Assembly: GCF_034259325.1 (NCBI RefSeq)
Contig: NZ_JAXIVS010000003.1
Location: 434,001-498,000, forward strand
DNA: 64,000 nucleotides
Origin: Hyalangium ruber
Lineage (GTDB): Bacteria > Myxococcota > Myxococcia > Myxococcales > Myxococcaceae
Direction: 5' to 3'
Program-made: the position numbers and the translations under genes
The notes under the pieces: generated by a model
The model's input: the letters and a program-made list of their open reading frames with translations, nothing else
Told to the model about the DNA's origin: nothing
Database searches by the model: none
Shown: piece after piece, positions 25,358 through 32,355 of the stretch
How the letters are laid out: each line of letters begins with the position of its first letter
How positions within the stretch are numbered: position 1 is the first letter of the stretch

Positions 25358-25391
25358 AGTAACCTCGGTTTCAAGGTAGGTGTTGAATTCC

Positions 25392-26021
25392 ATGAGCACC
25401 GGATCTGGGCAGCCTAAGGAAGAGTTGTTGCCGTCGGGGTCGACGGACAACCTGTACACCACCCACGACATCAGCCGTCTGCTGCAGGTGGACCCGTCGA
25501 CCGTGAGCAAGTGGATCGACCGGGGCATCCTGATGGCCTTCCGCACTCCGGGCGGCCACCGGCGCGTGCGCTCGGCGGACCTGCGCTCCTTCCTCATCGC
25601 CCACCAGATGCCGGTGCCGGATGAGCTGGGCAGCGGCACGGTGAAGCTGCTGGTGGTGGACGACGAGCGCCCCGTGCTCGACGCCATCAAGCGCGCCTTC
25701 AAGCCCTACACGGCCCAGGTGGAGTTGCAGACCACCAGCAGCGGCGTGGAAGCGCTGCTGCTCGTGTCGGAGCAGAAGCCGCACGGCATGCTCATCGACT
25801 TGAACATGCCGGACATCGACGGTCTCGAGGTCTGCCGTCGCATCCGCGCGCGCAAGCAGATGGAGAGCGTTCGCCTCATCACCATGACCTCCAACCACTC
25901 GCCCGAGGTGGTGGAGCAGTCCAAGCAGGCCGGCGCCATCGCGTGCCTGGCCAAGCCCCTGGACGTGCAGCAGGTGCTGGAGCTGTTCCGCATCCCGCTG
26001 GCGCTCGGCACCAAGAAGTAG
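25392..26021 (+). CDS. HTH (excisionase/MerR-like) - receiver domain regulator
   Basis: 209 residues from ATG 25392 (GTG 25380 and TTG 25383 are also open; a GGTAGG sits around 25374). Residues 20-72 form a helix-turn-helix of the excisionase/MerR N-terminal type (LYTTHDISRLLQVDPSTVSKW, then GGHRRV). Residues 84-205 are a CheY-like receiver with LLVVDDE, phospho-acceptor Asp136 in IDLNMP, and Lys in CLAKPLD. The order DNA-binding domain first, receiver second, is the reverse of most response regulators and is found in myxobacteria. It follows kdsC by 34 bases on the same strand. No kinase is adjacent. Confidence 0.88.
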   Translation: MSTGSGQPKEELLPSGSTDNLYTTHDISRLLQVDPSTVSKWIDRGILMAFRTPGGHRRVRSADLRSFLIAHQMPVPDELGSGTVKLLVVDDERPVLDAIKRAFKPYTAQVELQTTSSGVEALLLVSEQKPHGMLIDLNMPDIDGLEVCRRIRARKQMESVRLITMTSNHSPEVVEQSKQAGAIACLAKPLDVQQVLELFRIPLALGTKK

Positions 26022-27284: not shown

Positions 27285-28100
27285 ATGGCCGCACCACCGC
27301 GCAACCGTATTGGGGAACTCCTCGTCAAGGCCCGCGTCATCGACGAGCTGCAGCTTCGCAGCGCGCTCGCTCGCCATGACCAATGGGGAGGCCGGCTGTC
27401 CCGCGTCATCACCGACATGGGCATCGCCAGCGAGGAGACCGTCATCAACGCCATCGCCCAGGGCACGGGCGCGCAGCGCGTCCACCTGGGCAACATCACC
27501 CGCGACGCGGGCGCGCTGGCCAAGGTGGACGTGGTGCTGGCCGAGCAGAAGGGCGTCTTCCCGGTCGCCCTCAAGGACAACGGCAAGACGCTCGTGCTCG
27601 CCATGTCCGACCCCACGGACCTGAACACCGTGGACCAGGTGGTCGCCAAGAGCCGCGCACGCGTCGTCATCGTGGTGGCCGGCGACCGGGAAATAGAACA
27701 CGCCATCCTGCGCCACTACCGCGGCCAGGAGCCGGCCATGAGCTCGCGCTACACCGGCCAGCAGCGGCAGCAGGAGTCCTTCAACGAGGACGACGAGTTC
27801 AAGGTCGTCGACATGAGCGGCAACACGGTGGTCAAGCGCATCGCCGACGTCGCCCCGTCCATGGCCGCGCCCGCAGCCGCCGCGCCCGCCTCCTCGGGAG
27901 GCTCCGCCTCGGACCTGCTGGACGAGATCCTCTCCGGCGGCTCGGCGCCCGCGGGCCTCACCGCCGAGGAGATGCAGCGGCTCGAGACGGTGCGGATCAA
28001 TCAGGAGAAGAGCTCGAAGATCCTCCGAGCCCTGCTGGAGCTGCTGCTGGAGAAGGGCGAGCTCAACCAGAAGGAGCTGGCGGCCCGCATCCGCGCCTGA
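27285..28100 (+). CDS. MshEN (GspE N-terminal) domain protein
   Basis: 271 residues. The first about 145 residues form a MshEN/T2SSE N-terminal domain without any ATPase: RIGELLVKARVIDELQLRSAL, GGRLSRVITDMGIASEETVI, and VLAMSDPTDLNTVDQV. In MshE this fold binds c-di-GMP through two RLGxxL-type motifs; here RIGELL (8-13) and GRLSRVI approximate the pattern. A Ser/Ala-rich linker and a C-terminal helix (QEKSSKILRALLELLLEKGELNQKELAARI) follow. It could be a stand-alone second-messenger sensor or adaptor for type II/IV systems; this is inference. Divergent from the DUF309 gene. Confidence 0.82.
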   Translation: MAAPPRNRIGELLVKARVIDELQLRSALARHDQWGGRLSRVITDMGIASEETVINAIAQGTGAQRVHLGNITRDAGALAKVDVVLAEQKGVFPVALKDNGKTLVLAMSDPTDLNTVDQVVAKSRARVVIVVAGDREIEHAILRHYRGQEPAMSSRYTGQQRQQESFNEDDEFKVVDMSGNTVVKRIADVAPSMAAPAAAAPASSGGSASDLLDEILSGGSAPAGLTAEEMQRLETVRINQEKSSKILRALLELLLEKGELNQKELAARIRA

Positions 28101-28131: not shown

Positions 28132-29661
28132 TCAGCCCTGCGCCGGCTCCGAGGAGAGCACCAGGTCGCCCTTCTCGAGGAACTCGCGCTCCGGGAACGC
28201 CTTGTAGAGGTCGTCCAGCATGGCGTCGAGGTCCGGGTAGCGCTGCTCCTTCTTGTCCTGCGTCATCTTGTCGAAGATGGAGTCCAGCCCCGCGGGCGCC
28301 TCGGCGTTCACCTCCGAGGGCAGCGGCGAGCGCCGGCCCGGAATCTGCCCGGTCAGCATCTCGTAGAGCAGGATGCCCAGGCCGTACACGTCCGCCGCCG
28401 GGCCCACTTCCTTGGCGCGGTTGATCAGCTCCGGGGCCATGTAGACCATGCCGCCGGTGCCCATGAAGAGCTGCGGCATGCCCTTGGTCGCATCCACCTC
28501 GATGACGCGCCCCAGGCCGAAGTCACCCAGCTTGGCGTTGCCGCAGGCGTCGAAGAGCACGTTCTCCGGCTTGAGGTTGTGGTGCGTGAGCCCCGCTGCG
28601 TGCGCCGCGCGCAGGCCGTACGCCAGCTGCAGGAAGCAGCGCAGCGCCACGTTCACCGGCACGCCCTTGCCACCGCTGGCCTCCAACCGCTCCTTGAGGT
28701 TGCCGCGCAGCAGCTCCACCACGAAGTAGGGCCGCGCCGAGTCCACGTTCTGGTCGATGATCTGCGCAATGGACGGGTGGCGCACCTGCGCCTGCGCGCA
28801 CAGCTCCTTCTTCAGCCGCTTGAGCACCTCACCGCGCTGCAGGAAGGAGAAGTAGCCGAAGATGTCCTTCAGCTCCTTGATGGAGATGTCCAGCCCGAGC
28901 GCGTTGAAGCGCCCCTTGAACACGGTGCCGAGCGGTCCGGTGCCGATGGGATCGAACTTCTGGTAGCGCATGTCCAGGTCGGCGCCCTTGGGAGCGGCGA
29001 CCGACGAGGCGACGGAGGCGGCGGGAGGAGGCATGGAGGAAGAAGCAGCGACAGGCGGGGTGATGGTGGGCAGCGGAGCGGCGAAGGGCAGCGACTCCCT
29101 CCGAGGCTCGGGCGGCGGCGTATCCCCACGAGACGCGCTCATGGGAGCCACGGACGGCAGCGGCGGGATGATCGGCTCCACCGACGGCAGCCCCGTGCGC
29201 GACGCCTTGGCCGGAGGCAGCGGCACCGCCGGAGGCAGCGGCGGCGGCGCGGCGGGCCGCAGCACCTCCGACTCGTCCAGCGTCAGCTCGGGCGGAGGGG
29301 GCGGCAGCATCATGCCCAGGTCCTCTCCCATCACGGCCTGGGTGGACTCGTCCGCGCCGAGGATCTGATCGGCGAAGAACTCGCCGACCTCGGCGGAGAA
29401 GCGGTCCATCAACTCCCCGACGACGACGCGCTCGCCCTGGTCGGTGAGCCGCAGCTGCGCCTCCCGGTCCATGGCGATGTAGTGGTACTTGCGCAGGAAG
29501 AAGAAGTAGCTGTCGAACTCGAGTGAGACGGACGGTTCGAGCGCGGCCTTCACATCGGCCAGCTTGTTCGAACGTCCCAGGCGCGTGTTCTCCCTCAGGT
29601 TGCTGAGGATGAACAGCGCCTCGCCACTCACGGTATCGCGGCTGATGGCGGGCTTGAGCAT
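28132..29661 (-). CDS. Serine/threonine kinase-like protein, probable pseudokinase (HHN for HRD)
   Basis: 509 residues. N-terminal 1-105 is a winged-helix-like helical domain (DTVSGEALFILSNLRENTRLGRS). Residues 115-228 are a Pro-rich linker. Residues 235-490 form a Hanks-type kinase fold: glycine loop GTGPLGTVF (240-248), ATP Lys262 in ISIKELK, DFG at 380-382, APE as MAPEL (408-412). The catalytic loop reads THHNLKPEN, so the HRD aspartate is Asn362. Loss of this base normally abolishes phosphotransfer, while Lys262 and DFG suggest ATP binding is kept. It is read right after the response regulator upstream (37 bases apart), so the two probably act together as an allosteric signalling pair. 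Confidence 0.88.
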   Translation of the reverse strand: MLKPAISRDTVSGEALFILSNLRENTRLGRSNKLADVKAALEPSVSLEFDSYFFFLRKYHYIAMDREAQLRLTDQGERVVVGELMDRFSAEVGEFFADQILGADESTQAVMGEDLGMMLPPPPPELTLDESEVLRPAAPPPLPPAVPLPPAKASRTGLPSVEPIIPPLPSVAPMSASRGDTPPPEPRRESLPFAAPLPTITPPVAASSSMPPPAASVASSVAAPKGADLDMRYQKFDPIGTGPLGTVFKGRFNALGLDISIKELKDIFGYFSFLQRGEVLKRLKKELCAQAQVRHPSIAQIIDQNVDSARPYFVVELLRGNLKERLEASGGKGVPVNVALRCFLQLAYGLRAAHAAGLTHHNLKPENVLFDACGNAKLGDFGLGRVIEVDATKGMPQLFMGTGGMVYMAPELINRAKEVGPAADVYGLGILLYEMLTGQIPGRRSPLPSEVNAEAPAGLDSIFDKMTQDKKEQRYPDLDAMLDDLYKAFPEREFLEKGDLVLSSEPAQG

Positions 29662-29698
29662 GGGTGGCGCGACTCTATGTCGGCCACACGCTCCAGGG

Positions 29699-30163
29699 CT
29701 ACTTCCCGATGTGCAGGAGTTGCTTGACCGTCTCCAGCACTTCCACGAAGCGCACCGGCTTGCGCAGGTAGATGTCCACCCCCAGTTGCATCGCCCGGTC
29801 CTGCGCCTCCTTGCCTCCGGCGGAGATGGCGATGATGGGGATGTTGCGCAGCGCCTCCTCCTCGCGGATGCGCTCCACCAGGGCGAACCCGTCCATCACC
29901 GGCATGTACAGGTCCGTCATGACGAGGCTGAAGCGCTGCTCGTGCAGGAGGATCAGCGCGTGGTGCCCGTCCGGCGCGAAGTGCACCTCCAGGGGAACCT
30001 TGCCCGCCAGCTCTCCGCTGGCCAGCTTCTTCAGGACGTAGGCGTACATCTCGATGATGTGCGGGTTGTCCTCGACGATGAGCACACGGTAGCCCTCGGG
30101 ATTGACGCCCGACGGGAGCTGCGCGCCGCTTTGAGGTCCTGCCGCACTCAAGATGTCACCCAA
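29699..30163 (-). CDS. Single-domain response regulator (CheY-like receiver)
   Basis: About 154 residues from a TTG at 30163; the start is uncertain, since the frame is open to a GTG at 30337, but that extension is low in coding character. Receiver features: YRVLIVEDN, phospho-acceptor Asp84 in VMTDLYMPVMDG, switch Ser in AISAGG, and Lys in YLRKPVRF. There is no output domain. It is followed by the kinase-like gene in what looks like a two-gene operon. Its kinase is not in the vicinity. Confidence 0.85.
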   Translation of the reverse strand: MGDILSAAGPQSGAQLPSGVNPEGYRVLIVEDNPHIIEMYAYVLKKLASGELAGKVPLEVHFAPDGHHALILLHEQRFSLVMTDLYMPVMDGFALVERIREEEALRNIPIIAISAGGKEAQDRAMQLGVDIYLRKPVRFVEVLETVKQLLHIGK

Positions 30164-30455
30164 TCGCGCCAGTGCTGCTCGGGCCCTTCGCCCGGTCCAA
30201 CCCCCAGCGCCTCCCAACCCGCCGGCCGAAGCCGGATCCTGAAAGACTGATCGCCCGACTTCTACCGGATCCCGAGGTCTCGGAAAAGAAAGTGCCAACA
30301 CCGCCCTACACGGACCGTGAATGCTCGCCCGGTCCACGGCCCCAGGATGCCCCCTGATCCATCCACCTGTAAGCAGCGGCCGCCCCCAACCATAACAAGG
30401 GCTTGAAATCGCTCGGAAATTCGCTCATGGCCGTCCCGAGGAAGTTCGAGGGTTT
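30164..30455. other. Divergent intergenic region before nuoE
   Basis: 292 bases between the response regulator and nuoE, clearly less GC-rich than the genes around it. No gene or RNA is evident. TTGACA at 30459-30464, followed 17 bases later by ATACGA, could be a promoter; if so, the nuoE start would be the later ATG at 30498. Confidence 0.4.
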
Positions 30456-30986
30456 ATGTTGACAACGCAGCCATCTGAGCAATACGAAGCGCCCGCCATG
30501 GCGGAGCCCCTGTTCACCCCTGAAGAGCAGAAGAAATTCGACGCGGGGATCGCGGAGATCATCTCCCACTACCCGTCAGACCGGAAAAGCGCCGGGATGC
30601 TGCCCGCGCTGCGGCTGCTGCAGGACTTGAAGGGCTGGCTGCCGCCCGACGGCATGCGCCTGGTGGCCAAGCACCTGGAAGTGACGCCCGAGCGCGCCTA
30701 CGAGGTGGCCAGCTTCTATGTGATGTACCACCTGAAGAAGCCGGGCAAGTACACCATCGACGTGTGTACCAACCTCTCGTGCGCGCTGTGGGGCGCCGAG
30801 AAGATGCTCGCCTACCTGGAGGAGAAGCTGGGGCTGACGGCGGGCGAGGCCAACGAGAAGTTCACCCTGCGAGAGACCGAGTGCCTGGCCTCGTGCGGCA
30901 CCGCGCCCTGCTTGCAGGTGAATGAAGAGCACCACGAGAACCTGACGAAGGCGAAGCTGGACGCGCTGCTCGCCAAGCTCACCTGA
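30456..30986 (+). CDS. nuoE: NADH-quinone oxidoreductase subunit E
   Basis: 176 residues, the 24-kDa [2Fe-2S] subunit of complex I. Ligand cysteines are visible as CTNLSC and CLASC (C-x4-C ... C-x3-C), followed by GTAPCLQVN. The HYPSDRKSAGMLPALRLLQDLKGWL and TPERAYEVASFYVMY blocks are family marks. Two starts are possible: ATG 30456 with GAGGG just upstream, or ATG 30498 (MAEPLFTPEEQ). First gene of nuoEFJKLMN; nuoF starts 32 bases on. Confidence 0.96.
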   Translation: MLTTQPSEQYEAPAMAEPLFTPEEQKKFDAGIAEIISHYPSDRKSAGMLPALRLLQDLKGWLPPDGMRLVAKHLEVTPERAYEVASFYVMYHLKKPGKYTIDVCTNLSCALWGAEKMLAYLEEKLGLTAGEANEKFTLRETECLASCGTAPCLQVNEEHHENLTKAKLDALLAKLT

Positions 30987-31017
30987 TCGGCCCCCTTCGC
31001 AAGGAACCTGACCGCAC

Positions 31018-32355
31018 ATGGCGTCTACCACGGCCTTTGAACCGATCATTTCCGGCGCCTGGGGCAAGCCCCAGTCCTGGACGTTGGACAGCTACCGCAA
31101 GCGTGGCGGGTACGAGGCGCTGAAGAAGGCGCTGGAGATGGCGCCCGCGGCGATCATCGACGAGGTGAAGAAGTCCAACCTGCGCGGTCGCGGCGGCGCG
31201 GGCTTCCCCACCGGCCTGAAGTGGAGCTTCGTCCCCAAGGACAGCCCCAAGCCGAAGTACCTCGCCGTCAACGCGGACGAGTCCGAGCCGGGCACCTTCA
31301 AGGACCGCTACATCCTCGAGCTCGACCCGCACATGATGCTGGAGGGCATCGCCATCGCGGCCTACGCGCTGGGCGTGCACACCTGCTACGTGTACATCCG
31401 CGGGGAGTTCAAGTTCCCGGCCGAGCGCTGCCAGGCCGCCATCGACGAGGCCTACAAGGCGGGCATCTTCGGCAAGACGGTGCTGGGCAAGGACTTCCAG
31501 CTCGACTGCTACGTGGTGCGCGGCGCGGGCGCGTACATCTGCGGCGAGGAGACGGCGCTGCTCGAGAGCCTGGAGGGCAAGAAGGGCTGGCCCCGGCTCA
31601 AGCCGCCGTTCCCCGCGGTGGTGGGCCTGTTCGGCTGCCCCACGGTGGTCAACAACGTGGAGACGCTGGCCAGCGTGCCGCACGTCTTCTCGCGCGGCTC
31701 GGACTGGTACGCCAAGCTGGGCACCGACAAGTCGGGCGGCACCCGCCTGGTGTGCCTGTCGGGCACGGTGAAGCGCCCCGGCGTGTACGAAGTCGACATG
31801 TTCACCACGCTGTCGGACCTCATCTTCAACCCCAAGTACGGCCAGGGCATGCCCGAGGGCCGCAAGGTGAAGGCCGTCATCCCCGGCGGCTCCTCGGCCC
31901 CGGTGCTGGGCGCGGACGAGCTCGACGTGGCGATGGAGTTCGAGGCGCTCAAGGTGAAGCAGACGATGGCCGGCTCCGGCGGCGTCATCGTCATGGACGA
32001 CAGCTCCTGCATGGTGCGCTGCCTGTGGCGCGTGGCGCGCTTCTACGCCGAGGAGTCGTGCGGCCAGTGCACCCCGTGCCGCGAGGGCACGCCGTGGCAG
32101 ACGCGCCTCTTGCGCAAGATCGAAGAGGGCCGCGGGGAGATGAGCGATCTGGAGATGCTCAGCCACGTGGCGGCCTCCATCGCGCCCTACCCTCCCATCG
32201 GCCTGGGCAACACCATCTGCGCGCTGGGTGACGCGGCGGCGCTGCCCACGCACTCGTTCCTCATGCGGTTCCGCGCCGAGTTCGAGGCGCACATCCACGA
32301 GAAGCGCTGCCCGTTCGGCGACAAGCCCTGGGGTGCGTTCGGAGACTGGTCTTGA
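31018..32355 (+). CDS. nuoF: NADH-quinone oxidoreductase subunit F
   Basis: 445 residues. NADH- and FMN-binding subunit carrying the N3 [4Fe-4S] cluster. NADH site LRGRGGAGFPTGLKW; FMN site region NADESEPGTFKDR and AYICGEETALLESLEGKKG; N3 ligands in ESCGQCTPCREGT plus a distal Cys in GNTICALGD. Full length. Its stop overlaps the nuoJ start by four bases (TTGA), so the nuoG, nuoH and nuoI genes usual between F and J are absent here. Confidence 0.97.
   Translation: MASTTAFEPIISGAWGKPQSWTLDSYRKRGGYEALKKALEMAPAAIIDEVKKSNLRGRGGAGFPTGLKWSFVPKDSPKPKYLAVNADESEPGTFKDRYILELDPHMMLEGIAIAAYALGVHTCYVYIRGEFKFPAERCQAAIDEAYKAGIFGKTVLGKDFQLDCYVVRGAGAYICGEETALLESLEGKKGWPRLKPPFPAVVGLFGCPTVVNNVETLASVPHVFSRGSDWYAKLGTDKSGGTRLVCLSGTVKRPGVYEVDMFTTLSDLIFNPKYGQGMPEGRKVKAVIPGGSSAPVLGADELDVAMEFEALKVKQTMAGSGGVIVMDDSSCMVRCLWRVARFYAEESCGQCTPCREGTPWQTRLLRKIEEGRGEMSDLEMLSHVAASIAPYPPIGLGNTICALGDAAALPTHSFLMRFRAEFEAHIHEKRCPFGDKPWGAFGDWS

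Follow-up and report, generated by a model that had tools for sequence, protein, structure and literature searches.

A Myxococcota pseudokinase family with a predicted ATP-binding pocket, and its gene neighbour PixA in the family of Hyalangium ruber

We analysed a stretch of 64,000 nucleotides (nt) from Hyalangium ruber (G000:C3:434001-498000; hereafter the window, numbered from its first letter), which belongs to a genome of 10.77 Mb in 43 contigs. The subject is a gene on the minus strand whose product resembles a protein kinase with Asn in place of the catalytic Asp, together with the response regulator gene that lies immediately upstream of it. The kinase-like gene is laid out as follows.

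28132-29661, minus strand: pseudokinase gene, an open reading frame (ORF) of 509 amino acids (aa) starting with ATG; N-terminal domain, Pro-rich linker and kinase-like domain.
29347-29661, minus strand: N-terminal domain, residues 1-105 (~105 residues); no significant family or structure match.
28981-29346, minus strand: Pro/Ala-rich linker, residues 106-227; poorly conserved in the ortholog alignment.
28192-28980, minus strand: kinase-like domain, residues 228-490; Pfam Pkinase, with PDB sequence and profile matches.
28876-28878, minus strand: codon of beta3 Lys262; Lys kept in 48/48 members of the phylum sample described below.
28576-28578, minus strand: AAC codon of Asn362, at the position of the Asp of the HRD (His-Arg-Asp) motif; read from the DNA and the ortholog alignment.
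28522-28524, minus strand: codon of DFG Asp380; Asp kept in 48/48 members of the phylum sample.

Residues 233-480 match Pfam Pkinase with an expect value (E) of 5.6e-33, which places the protein among the Hanks-type kinases, and the other hallmarks of that fold are in place: a glycine loop (240-247), the beta3 Lys262, an alphaC Glu (Glu286), an HxxxKxxN catalytic loop, a DFG motif (380-382) and an APE motif with its Pro-Glu at 410-411. The HRD Asp that marks an active Ser/Thr kinase is replaced by Asn362. The DNA of the catalytic loop reads CAC CAC AAC CTC AAG CCG GAG AAC, giving His-His-Asn for His-Arg-Asp, and with the Asp gone and the Lys and DFG Asp kept the protein is, on its residues, a pseudokinase. 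A preliminary description of this locus, made from the letters of the window, had already noted the HHN loop with Asn362, the retention of Lys262, the glycine loop and DFG, and a spacing of 37 bases between this gene and the receiver gene; the ORF and codon reading (AAC at 28578-28576) and the intergenic gap (29662-29698) bear all of this out. Hydropathy analysis gave no transmembrane segment, the best 19-residue mean being 1.08 for the window protein and 1.46 for family members within the order. The closest named relative among the loci compared is Hyalangium versicolor, whose pseudokinase ortholog is 82% identical across the alignment.

The loss of the catalytic Asp is fixed among relatives. 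With the N-terminal domain as query, 98 of 145 genomes of the order were positive, each with a single match, and 88 of these belong to the organism's own family (f1, represented by 96 genomes). Eleven of the 88 f1 contigs end short of the catalytic loop, leaving 77 genomes to be scored, in which the loop reads HHN (75) or HQN (2), the Asn codon is AAC in 77/77 and Asp is found in 0/77. Two of the f1 loci (L084 and L102) carry the loop in a shifted frame because of a frameshift inside the gene, both in assemblies of at least 800 contigs. These two cases among 88, from fragmented assemblies, are what could be cited for a recent decay, a strain-level mutation or a sequencing error, but every scorable f1 genome has Asn (75 of the 77 without any shift of frame), and conservation of the domain is strong. 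We regard such an explanation as scarcely credible, and the ortholog set refutes it. A separate scan of contigs returned three loci, two close orthologs and one distant planctomycete kinase.

The same replacement extends across the phylum. At ten loci from other families of the order the loop reads HQN (4), HGN (2), HHN (1), HRN (1) or HGA (2). A search of 195 genomes of the phylum, 118 of which have the N-terminal domain, contributed 20 further loci beyond the order (one in the same class and 19 in other classes), all of which were read. All 20 encode full-length relatives (profile E 1e-95 or better) in which the N-terminal domain is always paired with the pseudokinase domain, and their loops are HGN (7), HQN (3), HAN (1), HGG (2), HGS (2), HRG (2), HTG (1), HLG (1) and HGD (1). 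In an alignment of 48 rows that combines 18 f1 members with these 10 and 20 loci (the phylum sample), the column of the catalytic Asp holds N 37 times, G six times, A twice, S twice and D once. The residues expected to hold nucleotide and metal are invariant in the same alignment: the beta3 Lys, the catalytic-loop Lys and Asn, and the DFG Asp are each kept in 48/48. The preliminary description had proposed an alignment of orthologues as a check, with HRD among them counting against its reading; with Asn fixed in 77/77 f1 genomes and Asp in 0/77 of them and 1/48 of the phylum sample, that reading stands.

Kinase paralogs from the genome of the window served as controls, and the 29 nearest all keep the Asp in the alignment (29/29). 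Across the whole genome of the window, degenerate DNA patterns found the HxD-x-K-x-x-N loop in 152 places and its HxN version in 2, against 1 and 0, respectively, for the reversed patterns. The genome's other HxN loop, HRNVKGDN at L168 (G000:C17:53397-53422), was added as a thirtieth paralog row for the sake of that loop, and its protein matches the family profile only as a distant kinase. When the 48 family members were placed in a maximum-likelihood tree with the 29 paralogs, the Asp column being excluded, the family formed one side of a branch with 100/100 support and so has a single origin; the tree program warned of a long paralog branch (L007) that joins the family's branch. The state of the column (Asp or not) requires two changes on this tree, with the single Asp-bearing member, L181, nested among members that lack it. 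The simplest history would be one basal loss of the Asp and one regain; alternatively, L181 may have retained its Asp separately, with several losses elsewhere. Judged by these sequences, the proteins form an ancient Myxococcota pseudokinase family, predicted to bind ATP and not to phosphorylate. The preliminary description had likewise predicted ATP binding without phosphotransfer, and the fixed Asn and invariant ATP/Mg residues are as expected from it, the function itself being a prediction.

The gene upstream of the pseudokinase encodes a receiver and has the following features.

29699-30163, minus strand: PixA ortholog reduced to its receiver; start uncertain, the open frame reaching a GTG at 30337; receiver domain ~29726-30085.
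29912-29914, minus strand: codon of the phosphorylatable receiver Asp (equivalent to PixA Asp180); kept in 97/97 aligned receivers.
30245-30298, minus strand: PilZ relict of 18 residues, 12/18 identical to the PilZ domain of the L069 PixA (E 0.002).

PixA (MXAN_1087) is a PilZ-receiver response regulator of motility polarity in Myxococcus xanthus that binds cyclic di-GMP (c-di-GMP); MglA needs it to be unipolar and its inhibition of reversals does not depend on Frz, its unphosphorylated form may be the active one, and its partner kinase is reported as unknown (PMC8316039, in part). The ortholog at L069, a locus presumably from a Myxococcus, has both domains (Pfam PilZ 3.4e-13, receiver 1.8e-18), with the R9xxxR motif and, 171 residues further, an Asp that is therefore Asp180. 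Because these positions match the published PixA numbers (PMC8316039, in part), the receiver gene of the window is identified as a PixA ortholog, its receiver sharing 92% identity with the one encoded in genome G103, to which L069 belongs. The receiver Glu, Asp, phospho-Asp, Ser and Lys are kept in 97/97 aligned receivers (88 from f1 genomes and 9 from loci at which no pseudokinase adjoins). In other genera R9xxxR and Asp180 are preserved exactly, whereas the window gene shares the orthologous receiver Asp and has no N-terminal PilZ domain, only the relict listed above and a weak PilZ profile match in its frame (1.5e-4). Across the 88 f1 genomes, PilZ gives a strong match in the receiver frame in 62 (with RxxxR in register in 61), a weak relict in three, including the window, and no match in 23. 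From its sequence, then, the single-domain receiver of the window is PixA minus its c-di-GMP domain. The preliminary description was right that a single-domain receiver is encoded here; the gene is the remainder of a PilZ-receiver PixA and not an ancestral single-domain regulator. With PilZ gone and a relict alone remaining, c-di-GMP binding by the window PixA is not expected. This loss need not abolish the function of PixA, since in M. xanthus motility was restored even by the R9A variant, in which c-di-GMP binding is lost (PMC8316039, in part). PilZ has been lost from PixA in the clade of the window and in several other genera (receiver genes L032-L038 and L058-L059) with the receiver staying highly conserved, and some of the PilZ-less genes show weak relict matches, in frame or in another frame.

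Within f1 the order of the two genes is stable. At 90/90 loci (88 genomes) the PixA receiver and the pseudokinase share a strand, the receiver being upstream, with a gap of at most 171 nt at 89 of the 90 (687 nt at L094) and of less than 10 nt at eight. When PixA is scored as present at E 1e-30 or better, the 96 f1 genomes divide into 88 with both genes, three with PixA alone, five with neither and none with the pseudokinase alone. The gene nuoE is divergent and within 700 nt of the receiver in 75/88 of these genomes; in the remaining 13 it is 1-3 kb away (five) or outside the flank of 0.5-3.8 kb (eight), and the PixA-pseudokinase pair is intact in 13/13. A scan for sigma-70-type sites found no promoter-like match between pixA and the pseudokinase gene in the window. 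The window carries nuoE and nuoF at 30456-32355, so that a motility regulator stands beside genes of respiratory complex I.

We consider it reasonably probable that the pseudokinase is a nucleotide-stabilised adaptor or allosteric partner which, in f1, acts within the PixA pathway; nucleotide binding, inactivity, partnership with PixA and the adaptor role are what we infer from the patterns described above. A cytosolic Hanks-type pseudokinase would bind ATP-Mg in its intact pocket and, its catalytic base being Asn, would carry out no phosphotransfer. It would act instead as an adaptor or allosterically, through its conserved N-terminal domain and the surfaces of the kinase fold. In f1, where it is encoded behind pixA, it would most likely work in the PixA pathway, which in M. 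xanthus determines how often cells reverse and places MglA at one pole, and its natural contact would be the unphosphorylated receiver of PixA.

Several observations weigh against this adaptor reading, some against its catalytic part and others, taken up further below, against the part played by PixA. One family member, L181, does have the Asp, in an HGD loop. The alphaC Glu is kept in 18/18 f1 rows and 8/10 from other families of the order, and in only 4/20 from beyond it, so the nucleotide pocket is not canonical in every member. The P+1 position, located by profile alignment to StkP, is Thr (24) or Ser (2) in the 26 of 29 paralogs whose motif could be matched; it is Gly (16) or Ser (2) in the 18 f1 rows, a contrast in favour of the adaptor reading, and Gly (7), Asp (2) or Ala (1) in other families of the order. 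Beyond the order it is mixed, with Thr (4) and Ser (7) making up 11/20, and the loss of the P+1 Thr is thus a trait of the order and not of the whole family. These residues bear on whether a weak phosphotransfer, or another ATP-dependent activity such as nucleotidyl transfer, has been kept with Asn tolerated as the base. The pocket residues kept in 48/48, the HGD loop of L181 and the existence of pseudokinase folds with other chemistry, such as SelO and SidJ (PMC12599244, in part), would all suit retained activity; it is nonetheless improbable in our estimate, given that the base position is N, G, S or A in 47/48 members and that the aligned P+1 Thr is lost in f1. The segment from the Gly at the end of alphaF to the C-lobe Arg, which holds alphaG, points the same way: 44/48 members have 35 residues here, and the 24 paralogs measured have a median of 48. 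We rejected this short segment as a unique mark of inactivity: among the Asp-bearing paralogs, L002 and L004 match its 35 residues and L007 falls short of them, and because L002 and L004 are the closest paralogs the length is no proof of inactivity.

The structural side of the adaptor reading finds no help in the models. With three sequences per alignment, the full-length model had a predicted local distance difference test (pLDDT) score of 39 and was useless. The best of five models of the N-terminus reached 73, the other four averaging 53-58, and a fold search with this weak model gave no match at E 0.001 or better. Pfam and PDB profile searches with the N-terminal domain gave no significant match either, weak hits such as HTH_45 (0.033) and DUF6293_C (0.041) coming from one or two members. 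The winged-helix-like N-terminus proposed in the preliminary description was therefore not confirmed by any of these searches.

The remaining points concern PixA. Three f1 genomes have PixA without the pseudokinase: G042, in which serB directly follows pixA as if the pseudokinase had been excised, G092, and G068, whose contig ends inside PixA. Outside f1, PixA-like receivers lie near nuoE with no adjoining pseudokinase in G137, G138 and G139 and in G013, G015 and G024 of family f3; in G137 and G139 the pseudokinase and PixA are on different contigs. No PixA adjoins the pseudokinase at 0/10 loci of other families and 0/20 beyond the order, the upstream flank being short at a few of them (for example 358 nt at L188). 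The authors of the PixA study, moreover, took the intergenic distance in M. xanthus as a sign that pixA does not form part of an operon (PMC8316039, in part). As PixA stays near nuoE, also in other families, its adjacency to the pseudokinase could be inherited synteny. The main rival to the adaptor reading builds on this: the pseudokinase would function without PixA, it would owe its position to the inheritance of an insertion behind pixA-nuo, and its true partners would be encoded elsewhere. The family is indeed widespread in the phylum without an adjoining PixA (0/30 loci outside f1), PixA stands near nuoE in families in which the pseudokinase is elsewhere or absent, and adjacency confined to one family amounts to a single inherited event. 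Such independence nevertheless has to contend with an order kept across 88 genomes, including the 13 in which nuoE has moved or lies outside the flank, with a pseudokinase that in f1 never occurs without PixA, with gaps that shrink to less than 10 nt at eight loci, and with the recurrence of c-di-GMP receptor genes beside the pseudokinase elsewhere. We think it rather unlikely, if a serious contender. On their distribution, PixA and the pseudokinase are separate modules joined within one family. We accordingly rejected the receiver as a general controller of the pseudokinase family: PixA occurs alone and adjoins the pseudokinase at none of the 30 distant loci. The receiver-controlled switch of the preliminary description thus keeps the upstream receiver in 88/88 f1 genomes and loses its generality; receiver control of the pseudokinase would be lineage-specific at most.

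Genes for other c-di-GMP receptors lie near the pseudokinase. A PilZ-coding stretch is directly downstream at 5/10 loci of other families (L122-L125 and L128; tblastn) and at L169, and Pfam confirms it at the four scanned (L122, L123, L125 and L169). A gene for an MshEN protein is convergent with the pseudokinase at 40 f1 loci, including 31 of the 47 loci with more than 2500 nt of downstream sequence, and also occurs at L122, L124 and L128. Profile searches found no PixA, MshEN or PilZ neighbour at the other loci beyond the order. These neighbours suggest, without proving it, a place for the pseudokinase in c-di-GMP-linked control. In a bolder version, c-di-GMP receptors (PixA in f1, PilZ and MshEN proteins in some other lineages) would act through the ATP-liganded pseudokinase as their output partner. 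The catalytic base would have been lost a single time, in the founder of the family close to the Myxococcota root, and in f1 the MglA polarity module would receive the signal of PixA through the pseudokinase. Were this so, the lineage of the window would relay the PixA signal after PixA had dropped its own c-di-GMP sensor, and bacteria would have arrived independently at a design like that of JAK JH2. We hold this to be unlikely. The motility restored by the R9A variant weakens the case that PixA needs c-di-GMP for motility, which tells against the c-di-GMP part of the output-partner version and makes that version less probable.

One further feature of the window adjoins the pseudokinase gene on its downstream side.

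27285-28100, plus strand: conserved neighbour gene, with a putative role alongside the pseudokinase.

Other neighbours vary between lineages. A serB gene (phosphoserine phosphatase-like, with ACT, ACT and HAD domains; for example L064:2147-3376) follows the pseudokinase at 45 loci; it was not found at 31 loci with more than 900 nt of downstream sequence, and the flank is too short at 24. The window lacks it, its closest relatives have none behind the pseudokinase, and serB was rejected as a partner. A short gene product (134-162 aa, with LAGVGxxFMTEEGIRS or near) is encoded downstream at L171, L172, L173, L174, L177 and L178, and gave no Pfam match above the cut-off at the two loci scanned (L173 and L178). 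At L171 a receiver-like ORF (2384-2779, numbered in the direction of the pseudokinase gene) can be made out by eye ~1.6 kb upstream of that gene, with two genes between. At L131 (L131:2-403) a degenerate receiver lies 138 nt upstream of the pseudokinase, its phospho-Asp position Ser-like by eye and its Pfam Response_reg match (1.6e-6) just under the cut-off; a pseudo-receiver here stands beside a pseudokinase that has HGN, no alphaC Glu and DPG. The window also contains, at 25380-26021, a gene that combines a MerR/excisionase-like helix-turn-helix with a receiver domain and that relatives also carry close to this cluster.

Bacterial pseudokinases are a known kind of protein, and those of the Ser/Thr type 'remain largely unexplored experimentally' (PMC12599244, in part). 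That 2025 review covers ActPs1-3, GLW, CP1, DYD and DLHK, and its main text has no word beginning 'myxo'. In M. xanthus, 11 pseudokinases have been reported among 99 kinases (PMC6791715, in part), and the ortholog of the present protein may be among the 11. We recognised no study of it in the open-licence literature on pseudokinases with M. xanthus, Myxococcota or response regulators, or under the tags of genes neighbouring pixA. What is unusual about the family is its spread through a phylum with the ATP-pocket residues invariant while the catalytic base has been released. Its position in f1 beside PixA, a regulator with a measured polarity phenotype, makes the function of a bacterial pseudokinase directly testable, and the genera whose PixA has lost PilZ offer a natural test of the contribution made by c-di-GMP binding.

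The nearest solved structures are those of StkP, PknA and PknB, with which the kinase domain aligns at E down to 5.2e-43 (family profile); StkP has the catalytic Asp, unlike the pseudokinase family, which also has a shorter segment after alphaF. ActPs2 shares the replacement of the HRD Asp by Asn, but almost all of its members have Arg for the beta3 Lys, most have a DFG deletion and ~90% have large insertions, and the group is mainly actinobacterial, often with transmembrane regions (PMC12599244, in part). The myxobacterial family keeps the Lys and the DFG Asp in 48/48, has only a short insertion before alphaC relative to StkP and, in the members from the order, shows no strong hydrophobic segment; the window protein accordingly has neither the beta3 Arg nor the DFG deletion of ActPs2. 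For control by a receiver, EpsW of M. xanthus is a precedent, a phosphorylated single-domain receiver that activates EpsZ by direct allosteric binding (PMC12802240, in part); its target is a phosphoglycosyl transferase, however, and for PixA it is the unphosphorylated form that is thought to be active. JAK JH2 has HGN for HRD, has lost the alphaC Glu, reads DPG and keeps the beta3 Lys; it binds ATP with one cation, and ATP binding matters for its function (PMC6287396, in part). HGN together with the absence of the alphaC Glu recurs in 7/20 members from beyond the order, and L131 has DPG as well, like JH2, whereas the window member is HHN with the alphaC Glu kept. The parallel would be functional only, the myxobacterial protein being bacterial, unfused to an active kinase and equipped with a different N-terminal domain; by analogy, JAK JH2 offers a precedent for a nucleotide-dependent HGN pseudokinase.

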